A stretch of 64,000 nucleotides of DNA from Citricoccus sp. SGAir0253 (GCF_005877055.1 NZ_CP039424.1:992001-1056000); one strand, 5' to 3'. Positions 4,925 to 9,749 are shown, numbered from the stretch's first letter. The notes: generated by a model from the sequence alone, not told the origin. Numbers and translations: made by a program.

Positions 4925-5977
4925 CTATCCGCGGTCCAGCCAGTCCACGTAGCGCCGGATCACCGGCCAGGCCGCGTCCGAGCTGTTGCCCACCACGGTC
5001 ACGGTGGTGCGGGTGACCGGATCGAAGCGGGTGCGCACGGACACCCCCGGCCCGGCGCCCTCGAGGATCCAGCCGGGGCCGTCGGCGTCGAGCCAGAAGC
5101 CCAGCCCCGAGTGCAGCCCGCGCTCCACGTCCGCGTGGCGGGGGCGGACCATCCGCTCGACCGCCGCGGCCGAGACGATCCGGCCGTCGGCGAGGGCCCG
5201 CCAGAACCGGCTGAGGTCGCCCACCGTGGTGTGGGCGCCGCCGTCGCCGTTGCCGCGCACGGGCAGGTGCAGGACGTTGGTGCGCACCGAGTCGTTGCGC
5301 AGGTAGCCGGTGGCGGTGCCGGCCGGCAGCTCGTCCAGCCGCGGGTAGCCGGTGCCGGCCAGGCCGGCGGGGGCGAGGACGCGGTCGGCGACGAGGTCGT
5401 GGAAGGGGGTGCCGCTGGCCCGCTCGGCGGCGAGGGCGAGCACGAGGTACGCGGCGTGGTTGACCGCGAAGCGGGTCCCCGGCGGGTCCACCTGCGCCCG
5501 GCCGTCCAACAGGGGCAGGAAGCCCGCGGTCTCGGCGAGGGTGTGCGTGGGCTCGGTGAGCACGTAGTCCGTGGCGTCCGCGCCGGGGACCTCGTCCCGG
5601 TAGTCCCCGATGCCCGAGGTGTGCGCGAGCAGGTGCTCGAGGGTGACGTCCGCGTGCACGTCCGGCAGGTCCCGCCCGAGCATGGGCCGCACGCGGGACG
5701 CCAGGGACAGCGTGCCGTCCTCGATGAGGGACATGACCGCCAGGGCCGTGAACGCCTTGGACACGCTCCCCACGGCGAACCGCGTCTGCGCCGTGTTGGG
5801 CACCCGCAGGACCCGCTCGGCCCAGCCGTAGCCGCGGCACATCACGGCCTGGCCGTCCTCGTCGATGGAGATGGCGCCGGAGAAGGTGTTGGCGCGCGCG
5901 GACTCGTCCAGGATGACGGCGAGTTCGTTCAGGTCAACGGCGGTTCTCAGGGCCCCCACCGGGGTCGTAGGTGTCAC
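4925..5977 (-). CDS. serine hydrolase, beta-lactamase/penicillin-binding-protein-like (class C fold)
   Basis: The 350-residue protein has the beta-lactamase-fold serine triad elements: FAVGSVSKAF gives the SxxK nucleophile, NHAAYLVLA gives the Y-x-N-like second motif region, and late conserved strands follow (GLGFWLDADG). The Tyr motif is not the strict YxN of true beta-lactamases, so an esterase or D-aminopeptidase role is as likely as peptidoglycan or beta-lactam hydrolysis. No signal peptide is visible, which also argues against a periplasmic-type beta-lactamase. TAAGTT (revcomp of 5984-5989) ends 6 bases before the GTG start. The rhodanese gene follows closely. Confidence 0.85.
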   Translation of the reverse strand: MTPTTPVGALRTAVDLNELAVILDESARANTFSGAISIDEDGQAVMCRGYGWAERVLRVPNTAQTRFAVGSVSKAFTALAVMSLIEDGTLSLASRVRPMLGRDLPDVHADVTLEHLLAHTSGIGDYRDEVPGADATDYVLTEPTHTLAETAGFLPLLDGRAQVDPPGTRFAVNHAAYLVLALAAERASGTPFHDLVADRVLAPAGLAGTGYPRLDELPAGTATGYLRNDSVRTNVLHLPVRGNGDGGAHTTVGDLSRFWRALADGRIVSAAAVERMVRPRHADVERGLHSGLGFWLDADGPGWILEGAGPGVSVRTRFDPVTRTTVTVVGNSSDAAWPVIRRYVDWLDRG

Positions 5978-6112
5978 CCCGCCAACTTAGTCGACAGTGG
6001 CTGGTGTCAGGGAGTGTGGCGCGCGGTGACTATGGGCGTAGTGAGGGTGGTGGGAACACTGTGACGGCACGGTGCGCGGGGGACTCGCGCGTGGACGCGG
6101 ATGCGCGGGGCC

Positions 6113-7027
6113 TCACCCGACGGAGTGGTGGCCGCCCAGGTGACGCGCCAGGGCCTCGGCCATGGGTTGGCCCGTGACCTCCTCGTAGGCGCTGTAGGCG
6201 GGGCTCGGGTTGACCTCGAAGCAGACGACCCGGCCATCCTCCGTGAAGCGCAGGTCGATGCCGGACATCTCCAGTCCCAGCCGCCGGGTCAGCGCCCTGC
6301 ACTCGTCCTCGACCTGCTCCGGCAACACGACGGCGTGCATGTCCGCGCCGGGGCCGTATCGGTAGTCCGTGGCCTCGCTGTCCACCGCGGTGGCGAACAC
6401 GCGGGGACCCACCACGTGGACCCGGACGTCGACCCCCGGCACCAGTTCCTGGAACTGGACGGGGCAGTTCTCCAGCAAGGGCAGCCGTGCGGTGTCGACC
6501 TCCGTGAACTCCGTGACGATCGAGCGCTCGCCGCTGATCGACTTGAAGATGATGCGGCCGTGCTCCTCCCGGAACGCATGGACCTGCTCGGGATCATTGG
6601 TGACCAGGGTGGCGGGGACCTCGAAGTGCTCGCGGATGATGAGGGCCTGGTAGGGCTTCGAGTTGTTGGAGTCATTGGCACTGGTCCGGTTGACCACGCG
6701 CGCCTCCGTGGACTCCAGCCACGCCTCGAGCGCGTGGTGCACGGACATGGCCTTCGCGAGGGACTCGGCGGACTCCCGGACGACGGGCAGTTCCGTCCAC
6801 GACGTCAGCCGGGTGTAGACACCGGTGACCCGGTCCAGCGGGACCGGGGGATCGACCCGTACGAGGCCCCCGGCGTGGCCGCCTTCCCACCAGGTCGAGA
6901 CGTCTGCCACGGCCAGTTCCCGCTGGTCCAGGAAGCGGTGGGGCACTCCCAGCCGGGCCAGCTGTCCCAGGACGGCGGCGACCGGTGGCTCGTGGGGCAG
7001 CCCGAGGACGAGCGCGAACCCGGTCAT
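6113..7027 (-). CDS. RimK/MvdD-like ATP-grasp ligase of the tyrosinase operon
   Basis: The 304-residue protein has a pre-ATP-grasp N-terminal domain (about 1-110) and an ATP-grasp domain: VNRTSANDSNNSKPYQ (112-127), FKSISGERS (161-169), QELVPGVDVRVHVVG (193-207), GIDLRF (256-261) and the metal-binding FEVNPSPAYS (270-279). Such enzymes use ATP to join a carboxylate to an amine or hydroxyl through an acyl-phosphate; relatives include RimK and the graspetide ligases MvdC/MvdD. It overlaps the preceding gene by 4 bases (ATGA), so the two are translationally coupled. Its substrate is unknown; the Lys/Glu/Ser-rich tail of the tyrosinase two genes upstream is an attractive but unproven candidate. 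Confidence 0.85.
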   Translation of the reverse strand: MTGFALVLGLPHEPPVAAVLGQLARLGVPHRFLDQRELAVADVSTWWEGGHAGGLVRVDPPVPLDRVTGVYTRLTSWTELPVVRESAESLAKAMSVHHALEAWLESTEARVVNRTSANDSNNSKPYQALIIREHFEVPATLVTNDPEQVHAFREEHGRIIFKSISGERSIVTEFTEVDTARLPLLENCPVQFQELVPGVDVRVHVVGPRVFATAVDSEATDYRYGPGADMHAVVLPEQVEDECRALTRRLGLEMSGIDLRFTEDGRVVCFEVNPSPAYSAYEEVTGQPMAEALARHLGGHHSVG

Positions 7028-7752
7028 CGGGGATCGGCCTCCGTGCCGGCCAGCTCTGCGAGGGCGTCCAGCAGGGGCGTGCCCCCGGGGACCAGCGCCG
7101 GGAGGGGATCCGTCCCGACCAGCACTGGCTCGCCGTCCTCCAGGACGAAGGTCGCACCGAGCAGCGGTATGCCGACATGCCGTGCCAGGGACACCAGTCC
7201 GTGGCGGACCGATTCAGTGAGCACGTCCTCCGGGCCGAGGCACCGGCCCGCGATGCAGAGGACGGAGACGGCGTCGGGGGCGAGACCGGGGGCCGCAGCC
7301 GTCCCCGGTGCATCACTCCGCCACGGTCGGGAGGGGACCCCGTGGGCGGTGGCCACGGCCCGCCACGCCGCCGTGGGCAGGTCCGCGCCCGTGATCGAGG
7401 CGGCACGGGGCGGATTGAGGACCGGACACCGCAGGGAGCGCAGCCAGCCCGTGGCCGCCGCTCGCCACTCCTCGCCGACGAAGGCGGCATCTGCCTCCGT
7501 GGGGTGCCTGGCCGGCAGTGGCAGGTCCCGCCACCGGTTGACCACGAGGTCCCACGCCGCCGGGTCCATGACGCGGCCATCGCGCAGTTCCAGGCTCCAC
7601 GTGGTGGTCGAGCTGGCCACCCTGTAGGACCACCGCGAGCCGAGGACCAGTTCGTCCGGGAGGAGCACCTCGACCACCAGTCCGCGGCGCCGCAGGGAGG
7701 TGGCGAGCCAGAGGACGTCCGTGTCCTCCGGCTCGCCCAGCACGCAGATCAC
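7024..7752 (-). CDS. degenerate ATP-grasp-like partner protein
   Basis: The 242-residue protein resembles a reduced paralogue of the downstream ATP-grasp ligase. It has an N-terminal alpha/beta start (MICVLGEPEDTDVLWLA), a VVNRWRDLPLP segment like the partner's pre-ATP-grasp region, and a C-terminal LGATFVLEDGEPVLVGTDPLP that aligns by eye with GIDLRFTEDGRVVCFEVNPSP, but with the key VNP asparagine replaced (TDP) and no recognisable lysine-bearing nucleotide loop. It is therefore probably inactive as a ligase and may bind substrate or act as a subunit. GTG start with a GGGAGGGG Shine-Dalgarno; 22 bases after the tyrosinase stop and overlapping the ATP-grasp gene by 4. Confidence 0.75.
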   Translation of the reverse strand: MICVLGEPEDTDVLWLATSLRRRGLVVEVLLPDELVLGSRWSYRVASSTTTWSLELRDGRVMDPAAWDLVVNRWRDLPLPARHPTEADAAFVGEEWRAAATGWLRSLRCPVLNPPRAASITGADLPTAAWRAVATAHGVPSRPWRSDAPGTAAAPGLAPDAVSVLCIAGRCLGPEDVLTESVRHGLVSLARHVGIPLLGATFVLEDGEPVLVGTDPLPALVPGGTPLLDALAELAGTEADPR

Positions 7753-7774
7753 CTGCCCCTCCCGTATCCGCGCC

Positions 7775-8908
7775 TCAACCGTGCCGGTGCAGGTCTTCGC
7801 GCCGCATCGACAAGGCCTGCCCCAAGGCGGCCACGTCCGGGTTCGGAGCCACCCCCGGATCCGGCTCGAACTGCAGCGCCGCGCCGGACAGGTCCGGGCG
7901 CAACTCCGGCCGGATGAAGGGGTCGCCGGGGATCTCGCGGATCTCCTTCGACTCCTTGGGACCCACTTCCTTGGGCGCGAGTTCCTTGGGGAGGCGTTCC
8001 TTCGACTCCTTCGGAAGGCGCTCCTTGAGCTCCTTGGGCAGCCGCTCCTTGAGTTCCTTCGGGAGCCGGTCCTTGAGCTCCTTGAACCGGACCTTCACGA
8101 CGGGACGGCACTCCGGGTCGACCGTGTCGTAGAAGTAGTCCAGCGCCCGGTGGTCGACCAGGTCGGCCGGGCGGATCGACTCGGGGACCACGGTCCACGG
8201 AAGGACACCGAACGGCGTCGTGGAGCCGTTCCACGGCCACATCGAGTCCGTGAGGTTGTGCCCCAGCGGTCCCCCACTGAGGGGCAGGAAGGGCTGGAAC
8301 CCCGCCGTGGCCGCATGCCGGGTGATCCACTCGGACCACAGTCGGTCCACATTGGCGTGGAGCAACCAGAAGACCGGGTCCCGGGGTGCGATCAACGGAT
8401 TGCCCATGAAGCCGCCCACCCACACATGGGCGGCGCCGTGAGGCCCCTCCACGGATCGGAACGTGGTGTAGTCCGGGCTCGACATGCTGGTGCCGATCGT
8501 GCCGCCCGTCCCCGGGAAGCCGAAGACGTCGAACCGGTTCCGGACCAGGCCCCAGGAGGCGAAGGGCCCCGTGGTGACCGCGCCCGTGCCCGCCGCGCCG
8601 GGACCGCCCATGAAGTCGTCCCGCCAGACCAGGCTCTCCGTGCCGGCTGGATTGACGTTGGCCTGCGTCCAGTCCCAATAGGGGATGCTCACGCTGGGGT
8701 CGATCGCCTGGAGGTCGTCCTCGAACCGCCGGAGGAACTCGCGGTGCCACGGGAAGAACGCCGGGCCGCCATGACCGTGGCCCATCGCCCCCCGGTGTTG
8801 CTCCACGTAGTCGTCGTAGCCGCCATTGGACCGCAGCTGGTTCACGGCGTTGGTGAACGCCACGCGCTCCGCGATCGTCAGCCGTGACAGGTTCTTACGG
8901 CATCCCAT
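7775..8908 (-). CDS. tyrosinase (type-3 copper oxidase) with a C-terminal KELKERLP repeat tail
   Basis: The 377-residue protein has a complete dicopper tyrosinase core. CuA ligands are probably H38, H46 and H55 (HGGPAFFPWHREFLRRFE region), and CuB ligands H157, H161 and H184 (PHGAAHVWVGG and DPVFWLLHANVDRLW). The IPYWDWT motif is also present. Such enzymes hydroxylate or oxidise phenols to quinones. Unusual is the extension after about residue 270: four near-perfect octads KELKDRLP, KELKERLP, KELKERLP, KESKERLP (276-307), then looser KEL/KEV/KES units to 325 and a Pro/Asp-rich end. No export signal is visible, although the classical Streptomyces enzyme is exported with its MelC1 partner. The MelC1-like gene ends 2 bases upstream; GGGGAG precedes the ATG. 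Confidence 0.93.
   Translation of the reverse strand: MGCRKNLSRLTIAERVAFTNAVNQLRSNGGYDDYVEQHRGAMGHGHGGPAFFPWHREFLRRFEDDLQAIDPSVSIPYWDWTQANVNPAGTESLVWRDDFMGGPGAAGTGAVTTGPFASWGLVRNRFDVFGFPGTGGTIGTSMSSPDYTTFRSVEGPHGAAHVWVGGFMGNPLIAPRDPVFWLLHANVDRLWSEWITRHAATAGFQPFLPLSGGPLGHNLTDSMWPWNGSTTPFGVLPWTVVPESIRPADLVDHRALDYFYDTVDPECRPVVKVRFKELKDRLPKELKERLPKELKERLPKESKERLPKELAPKEVGPKESKEIREIPGDPFIRPELRPDLSGAALQFEPDPGVAPNPDVAALGQALSMRREDLHRHG
7934..8083 (-). repeat. in-frame 24-bp repeat array encoding Lys/Glu-rich octads
   Basis: Within the tyrosinase gene, a roughly 24-base unit encoding KEL-K-(D/E)-R-L-P is repeated four times and then decays into KELAP, KEVGP and KESKE units. The unit keeps Pro every eight residues, so the tail would form short charged helical turns separated by prolines. 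Codon choice varies between copies (GAG/GAA, CTC/CTG), so the peptide rather than the DNA appears to be conserved. Confidence 0.9.
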
Positions 8909-8910
8909 GG

Positions 8911-9246
8911 CTACTGCTCCCCGTCCTCGTGGCCGTCTGCGCCGCCGTCGCCGTCATGGCCTCCGTGGCCTGGCGACCGCTCGACGACCCGCCCCGCCTC
9001 GTCCACGACCACGCGGCCCGGGGCGTCGAACATGTATCCGTAGTCCGCGAAGTGGCGGGCCAGTTCCTTCAGGTCCGGCGAGGCGAAGTACGCCTCGTCG
9101 CACATCCACATGCTCAGGCCCACACCATCCTCGGCGTGGTGATGGTGGCAGCGGAACTCTCGCCCGTCCACGGTCACGACCGCGTCGGGATGCTCCTCAT
9201 GGATGGTGATCTTCTTGCCCATGTACGTGAATTCCACGTCGCTCAT
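8911..9246 (-). CDS. MelC1-like copper chaperone (tyrosinase caddie) candidate, His-rich
   Basis: The 111-residue protein starts the tyrosinase operon. Its core, FTYMGKKITIHEE, VVTVDGREF, CHHHHAEDG, MWMCDEAYFASPDLKELARHF, resembles by eye the C-terminal part of Streptomyces MelC1, the copper-loading partner of tyrosinase (pattern y-G-x-x-I, V-x-x-DG-x-x, His, then a PTP-like turn and an Ala/Arg helix). Potential copper ligands are C33, H34-H37, M46, M48, C49 and a His/Gly/Asp-rich tail (HGGHDGD, GHEDGE). Unlike classical MelC1 there is no signal peptide, matching the absence of one on the tyrosinase. GGGAGAAGG precedes the ATG. A RiPP-precursor role is a weaker alternative. Confidence 0.75.
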   Translation of the reverse strand: MSDVEFTYMGKKITIHEEHPDAVVTVDGREFRCHHHHAEDGVGLSMWMCDEAYFASPDLKELARHFADYGYMFDAPGRVVVDEAGRVVERSPGHGGHDGDGGADGHEDGEQ

Positions 9247-9749
9247 GGCGCCTTCTCCCAGGGAAAGGGTGGGGTCCGTCAGGGTCGTCCGCGAGGTGGC
9301 CGCACGAGGGCAGGGGTGGGGACGGGTAGCGGTCCCGGACCGTCCTGCCGTGGGTTCGGCCGTGGCCTACACGGTGGTATGCGCGAGTGCGCCTCTGGCA
9401 ATGCACGGTGCCATGACCGTCCGTTTCGCCGCACGTGGGGCGCCCTCATCCCGTGGCCGCCGCAGGGGTAGCACCATGGTGGGATCCCACCTGCCGTGCG
9501 TCAAGGTGTCCCGTCCTGCCTGCGGCCCGGACGCCTCGGCCGCCACGGACGCCGCCGTGGCACGGTGGCTACCGCGGCATGGTCCGGCGCCTGGTCCGGC
9601 TGCTGGCTCCCCGCGAGGCGGCAGGCGTGAAGGGGCTCCGACGGGAGGCGGTCACGGGAGCCGACGCGCCGAGGGCCCGTGGGGCGCGCCCGAGGACTCC
9701 CCAGGCACCGCCCCGGGTGCCCCCGGATCACGTCCGTAGACTGGAGCGC
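9247..9749. other. intergenic region between the tyrosinase operon and tsaB
   Basis: About 500 bases separate the divergent tyrosinase operon and tsaB. A -10-like TAGACT (9737-9742) serves tsaB. For the leftward operon I see only weak elements, such as TTGCCA (revcomp near 9396-9401) with a TACCAC-like hexamer 16 bases on. A short palindrome around ATGGTGGGATCCCACC (about 9476-9491) could be an operator. Open frames crossing the region are Arg/Pro/Gly-rich and have no start signals, so I see no gene here. Confidence 0.6.

Follow-up and report, generated by a model that had tools for sequence, protein, structure and literature searches.

A Citricoccus tyrosinase operon with a graspetide-type ligase pair predicted to crosslink the enzyme's tail

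Corallotide (CorA/CorB, graspetide group 15) is among the closest described relatives of the system presented here. Its TIGR04187-type synthetase, CorB, joins Lys to Asp by isopeptide bonds within a long repeat protein. Graspetide synthetases that form amides use Lys as donor and Glu or Asp as acceptor, and corallotide and rosaritide show that graspetide biosynthesis can need partner proteins (PMC13097080). In another case, fuscimiditide, an engineered leader moved C-terminal to the core still functions (PMC13003496). Here we describe a four-gene operon of Citricoccus sp. SGAir0253, found in a window (the whole stretch of DNA analyzed) of 64,000 nucleotides (GCF_005877055.1 NZ_CP039424.1:992001-1056000). 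It encodes a caddie-like protein (gene 1), a tyrosinase with a repeat tail (gene 2), a degenerate ATP-grasp protein (gene 3) and an ATP-grasp ligase (gene 4). In this and related loci, graspetide-type ligases, known for making small peptides, probably act on whole enzymes by crosslinking their tails.

With corallotide the operon shares a TIGR04187-type synthetase, a long repeat substrate and an oxygenase in the cluster; the Lys-Asp (KxxxD) isopeptide loops of corallotide would be a further shared trait. It differs in having an enzyme tail in place of a dedicated precursor and a tyrosinase in place of a 2-oxoglutarate-dependent oxygenase. Corallotide has no paired degenerate ATP-grasp protein, and the part of its source consulted does not describe the LRPDL motif that we find here. 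Plesiocin has a multi-repeat core, with Thr-Glu esters in a short precursor that carries an N-terminal leader, and its synthetase PsnB (PDB 7drm) is the closest solved structure to the gene-4 family. The repositioned fuscimiditide leader offers the same order of core and C-terminal recognition sequence, although it is engineered and involves a single ligase and ester links. RimK, the S6 glutamate ligase, adds Glu; it resembles gene 4 in being an ATP-grasp ligase that acts on a protein C-terminal region, but is the weaker profile match. Finally, the MelC1-MelC2 pair of Streptomyces also has a caddie gene directly before the tyrosinase, the caddie fold and the six copper histidines, whereas MelC1 is matched by PF06236 and carries an N-terminal extension that looks like a signal peptide, and MelC2 has no repeat tail or ligases. 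Of the features that define graspetides, the operon shows an ATP-grasp ligase like MvdC, MvdD, TgmB and PsnB (with below cut-off scores) and a conserved, predicted recognition sequence with a core of donor (K/S/T) and acceptor (D/E) residues, and a short dedicated precursor with an N-terminal leader is missing. Our literature search found nothing linking tyrosinase with graspetides, or graspetides with M43 proteases. A 2026 survey makes no mention of tyrosinase, but describes a graspetide group (group 41) in which a copper amine oxidase accompanies large precursors. The survey of Makarova et al. was confined to proteins no longer than 150 amino acids (PMC8939145); searches for short precursors of this kind would therefore miss cores borne by enzymes.

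The operon and its ligase pair

The four open reading frames lie on the minus strand at positions 6113-9246 and code for 111, 377, 242 and 304 amino acids in gene order. They are separated by 2 bases (genes 1 and 2) and 22 bases (genes 2 and 3), and genes 3 and 4 overlap by 4 bases. Gene 1 (P0001, 8911..9246) codes for a His-rich protein without signal peptide, a putative MelC1-type caddie for copper transfer, and gene 2 (P0002, 7775..8908) for a type-3 copper tyrosinase with a C-terminal repeat tail. Gene 3 (P0003, 7024..7752, with a GTG start) would be the partner or scaffold subunit of the ligase encoded by gene 4 (P0004, 6113..7027). This layout agrees in coordinates, gaps and overlap with a preliminary description of the same DNA, whose naming of a tyrosinase, a degenerate ATP-grasp protein and an intact ATP-grasp ligase is borne out by PF00264, a profile match and TIGR04187, respectively.

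A complete operon with identical gene order and the identical 4-base overlap is present in Palleronia pelagia (Roseobacteraceae, Pseudomonadota), where a small caddie-like protein is followed by a tyrosinase with an even longer K/E tail, a degenerate ATP-grasp protein and an ATP-grasp ligase. The four-gene grouping is therefore more than chance. Conserved co-occurrence in other genomes had been put forward in the preliminary description as a check, its absence being the outcome that would tell against the proposal, and the association is conserved. Palleronia was also the only relative found when tyrosinase peptides were compared with the genome collection, a search that reaches close relatives only. 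At E 1e-20 or better, seven congeners contained no gene-4 homologue and 245 genomes of the family yielded one other match (genome G037). The system is rare. The ligase profile gave no match against viral contigs.

Gene 4 matches TIGR04187 (6.6e-38) and MvdD (1.4e-21) in NCBIfam, i.e., the TgmB/MvdD/MvdC ATP-grasp peptide maturases. When its family profile was compared with the PDB, 7drm (PsnB) came out best (E 1.3e-39). The matches 7drm, CdnC, 5ig9, 9bou, 5ig8 and AMdnB, of which we take the unnamed entries to be graspetide synthetases, ranged from 1e-25 to 1e-39, and RimK enzymes reached 6e-12. By these comparisons gene 4 is assigned as a graspetide-synthetase-type ATP-grasp ligase, with PsnB as its nearest relative in the PDB. 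Gene 3 had no match in Pfam or NCBIfam. A profile of four sequences of its family matched the gene-4 family over the whole length of gene 3 (hhalign probability 94.6%, E 6.7e-8), with a large share of the central ATP-grasp region absent, and its homologues adjoin the ligase in Palleronia, in genomes G237 and G037 and, in swapped order, in Candidatus Megaera. Gene 3 is thus read as a degenerate paralogue of gene 4, and we infer that it is the obligate partner of the ligase, presumably as a scaffold subunit. One apparent gene-3 match (L011) proved unrelated.

The repeat tail and its predicted recognition motif

The tyrosinase matches the common central domain PF00264 (3.8e-36) and has all six copper histidines, H38, H46, H55, H157, H161 and H184, with H157 read from the HxxxH pattern. 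It is 53-61% identical to the Palleronia enzyme (61% over aligned columns). Its tail contains the predicted core (residues 272-325, KVRFKELKDRLPKELKERLPKELKERLPKESKERLPKELAPKEVGPKESKEIRE, at 7934..8095 on the minus strand), delimited by repeat statistics and alignment, in which K is followed by E or D at 12 places against 3.1 expected, a number reached by none of 2000 shuffles. Synonymous codons differ between the repeat units, and the retention of K-then-E/D together with this codon diversification shows that the repeats are under selection on the protein sequence. Compared with the Palleronia tail, 40 of 54 aligned residues are identical, with about 50 residues of indels that reflect a different number of units. 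Since Lys-then-Glu is kept while unit number and synonymous codons vary, the repeats are old and maintained at the protein level. The preliminary description spoke of a Lys/Glu/Ser tail; Lys and Glu (or Asp) are indeed the main residues, and Ser makes up a minor part. It also had the oxidase act on Tyr residues or a small phenol; action on Tyr of the tail finds no support because neither the window nor the Palleronia tyrosinase has any Tyr in its tail, so that the enzyme cannot act on tail Tyr of its own. A KxxxE spacing is enriched in the tyrosinase tails (p about 0.01-0.03), but other spacings are equally or more enriched and the protease tail of G237 (see below) has no such enrichment; KxxxE was therefore dropped as an exact ring size.

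After the K/E repeats comes the motif FIxxxLRPDL (FIRPELRPDLSGAAL, residues 331-345, at 7874..7918 on the minus strand), located by a genome pattern search and alignment. A degenerate version of the pattern matches once per genome in four whole genomes (about 17.6 Mb), in each case in the protein encoded immediately before the ligase pair, and the reversed-pattern control gave 0 matches. The forms are FIRPELRPDLSGAAL in the window, FIDPGLRPDLTGADL in Palleronia, GFIGAELRPDLSGSAF in G237 and HFIAQSLRPDLGAGAL in G037. In G237 (L010), reached through the gene-3 family, the place of the tyrosinase is taken by a Nal1/trypsin-like protease unrelated to it, which has a K/D/E-rich tail with GFIGAELRPDLSGSAF near the C-terminus and is followed by the ligase pair. 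The G037 contig begins inside a K/E/D tail, leaving a truncated protein, and continues with HFIAQSLRPDLGAGAL and the pair, whose genes here too overlap by 4 bases. In Ca. Megaera the motif, as FISFDLRPDLN, is carried by a 41-residue peptide directly before the ligase, with a K/D-repeat peptide (CSKDKKDGKDCSKDGKDSD) just upstream of it; here the intact ligase comes first and the second ATP-grasp-like protein after. This Megaera locus is on a plasmid (L012:4702-8202), where the K/D peptide, the LRPDL peptide, the intact and the second ATP-grasp protein and two isopenicillin-N-synthase-like dioxygenases are encoded consecutively. The motif lies C-terminally on enzymes of 377-468 amino acids, short peptides being a feature of Megaera only. 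The ligases of the motif-bearing loci, together with that of genome G422, form one clade (support 99/97). The strict co-occurrence suggests that FIxxxLRPDL is the recognition site for the ligase. The ligase pair itself is modular, its relatives adjoining a trypsin/Nal1-like protease or short motif-bearing peptides, and a need for the dicopper oxidase finds no support, since the pair also occurs without one.

Plasmid homologues of both enzymes align essentially up to the tail, covering at most query residues 1-306 of 425 for the Palleronia tyrosinase and 1-326 of 468 for the G237 protease among the matches listed. Because these homologues match essentially the catalytic parts only, tail and motif behave as a cassette. 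One Paenibacillus relative of the protease has 326 amino acids and no ATP-grasp gene annotated next to it.

A parallel arrangement was reached through ligase matches in Burkholderia stagnalis (L013:3388-5939) and G273 (L041:5469-7997), where M43 metalloproteases (PF05572) are each encoded directly before a graspetide-type synthetase, the two synthetases being sisters (support 100/99). Catalytic domains and a C-terminal APFVL(S/A)TPHHSMAW are conserved in both proteins, and the middle segment has diverged, with T/D repeats in one and KFRDDPVGT (K/T/D) repeats in the other. A conserved recognition motif with a variable donor/acceptor core is the signature of a precursor of a ribosomally synthesized and post-translationally modified peptide (RiPP), here on an M43 enzyme and with the order reversed. 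The M43 loci are a second, independent enzyme-tail system of the same plan (enzyme, repeats, C-terminal motif and graspetide synthetase). It is about as likely as not that protein modification has drawn on graspetide synthetases on two or more separate occasions. Tyrosinase, trypsin/Nal1-like protease and M43 metalloprotease would then carry exchangeable C-terminal repeat and motif cassettes crosslinked by the neighboring ATP-grasp enzyme, in one system a catalytic/degenerate pair, as a natural form of "follower-guided" crosslinking.

Predicted crosslinking of enzyme tails and its alternatives

We regard as reasonably probable a graspetide-type system that is directed by a C-terminal recognition motif and puts Lys-Glu/Asp crosslinks into the tail of an enzyme instead of a small free peptide. 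Gene 1 would load copper into the tyrosinase, and the gene-4 ligase, which probably forms a heteromer with its degenerate paralogue, would recognize FIxxxLRPDL at the tyrosinase end. With ATP, it would phosphorylate Glu/Asp carboxylates in the repeats preceding the motif, and the activated groups would be joined to Lys amines in a chain of small isopeptide-bridged loops, as ligase family and residue composition suggest. The outcome may be a stiff, protease-resistant tail, with stability, anchoring, assembly or Lys protection as candidate uses. The same type of tail and motif accompanies the pair on an unrelated protease, which makes the tail a very probable natural target of the ligase. That the ligase crosslinks the tail as in graspetides, already proposed in the preliminary description, gains comparative support from the graspetide-synthetase-like family and from this protease. 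If true, a natural product pathway would double as a protein post-translational modification that makes covalently braced enzyme tails, and the C-terminal motif with the ligase pair would be a ready genetic tag for protein crosslinking. The degenerate ATP-grasp partner would also gain a clear function, consistent with the recently reported partner-dependent graspetides.

Several observations weigh against crosslinking. The modification of the tail is itself a prediction from sequence comparison, and the loci with the motif are few, five being known. In Megaera the peptide with the motif has hardly any acidic residues, the K/D repeats being on another peptide. The NCBIfam score of gene 4 (130.7 bits) is far under the curated cut-off of 350, and such scores place it on a divergent branch. 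The match of the gene-3 and gene-4 profiles is weak (45.6%) when three sequences are used, and the AlphaFold2 model of gene 3, with a predicted local distance difference test (pLDDT) score of 37, is unusable for fold comparison. No motif-bearing neighbor was found for the G422 ligase, although it belongs to the clade; at this locus (L040:6852-8038) a short remnant-like ORF occupies the place of gene 3, as in a degraded or rewired copy.

The ligase might instead tag the tail in the manner of RimK, adding Glu, other amino acids or a small amine or acid to tail Glu/Lys with no intramolecular crosslinks. The chemistry of the ATP-grasp superfamily permits this, gene 4 matches the RimK family hidden Markov model (HMM) at 2.3e-16 and Glu and Lys abound in the tails, but the profile is far closer to graspetide synthetases (E 1e-25 to 1e-39) than to RimK (1e-12), and the repeated donor-acceptor pairs and the T/D cores of the M43 system suit crosslinking better, so that we hold tagging to be unlikely. 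Similarly unlikely is a fused RiPP precursor, whose tail would first be crosslinked and then cleaved away to give a free bioactive peptide, the enzyme being a carrier or a second modifying enzyme. Core and recognition motif do look precursor-like, and the Megaera motif belongs to a short peptide of its own, with the two dioxygenases encoded after it. However, no protease or exporter gene is found among the four co-directional genes in either the window or Palleronia, the repeats are simple and conserved, and they offer no Tyr to the tyrosinase. It is quite improbable that the tail only docks the ligases and that the pair has some other small molecule or protein as its substrate, the tyrosinase oxidizing the conjugate in a metabolic complex. 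Co-occurrence of the motif is equally compatible with a docking role, and tyrosinases act on small phenols, but the same pair and tail are found with a protease, no shared small-molecule pathway being apparent, and conservation of the K/E repeats between distant bacteria would need another reason. It is hardly credible that an ordinary tyrosinase operon lies next to an ATP-grasp pair by chance, the two being unrelated: a tyrosinase gene accompanied by just a caddie gene is common, as in the Streptomyces plasmid pair, but operon and coupling are conserved in two distant bacteria and the motif is found in ligase-linked proteins only.

Caddie-like protein, genomic setting and other ATP-grasp loci

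The identification of gene 1 came through fold comparison alone. The MelC1 HMM (PF06236) gave no match to P0001 at E <= 1, or to its Palleronia orthologue P0007 (36% identical) at E <= 0.1. Likewise, gene 1 could not be matched by hhalign to a single MelC1 sequence, and its profile had no match among PDB sequences. In contrast, with the AlphaFold2 model (mean pLDDT 68.8, a middling confidence), MelC1/ORF378 caddie chains were the top 11 Foldseek and the top 20 VIA-align matches. In VIA-align, the Streptomyces caddie chains had Z 6.0-7.0 and a root mean square deviation of 3.0-3.4 with 64-68 residues aligned, the first unrelated row having 4.5. Hence the earlier MelC1-like label holds for the fold of the model and not for the HMM. 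As modeled, gene 1 carries the MelC1 caddie fold, and its role would be, by analogy with MelC1, the copper loading of the tyrosinase. An N-terminal export signal is absent in P0001 and P0007, which both begin directly at the caddie domain in the alignment. On a Microvirga ossetica plasmid (L061:3247-6113), a signal-less, small, caddie-looking protein (P0018) is encoded upstream of an 870-residue tyrosinase with a long C-terminal extension, which suggests that caddies free of export signals are more widespread than this operon.

The operon is within a segment (5990..9732) absent from two congeners (G060 and G119). The flanking genes (beta-lactamase-family and TsaB-like) are 129 and 243 bp apart in these genomes, respectively, against ca. 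3.8 kb in the window. As the flanks nearly abut where the operon is missing, it is an insertion of ca. 3.7 kb at an otherwise conserved site. No matches to a sigma-70 promoter or terminator were found. The beta-lactamase-family (PF00144) gene just downstream of the operon (4925-5977) was a candidate member, given that a PF00144 protein is encoded in the corallotide cluster too. It was excluded as part of the flank conserved in the two congeners without the operon and is probably not a member; none was seen beside the Palleronia operon.

Eleven Escherichia plasmid records contain weak matches to the G237 ATP-grasp protein. In two genomes from the sample of the Palleronia phylum, an ATP-grasp ligase encoded near hslVU is closely preceded by small peptides with YYTQA(I/L)GE.GG in common (L056:6167-7367 and L057:5973-7110), in one case with a peptidase-type ATP-binding cassette transporter; these peptides are likely graspetide precursors.

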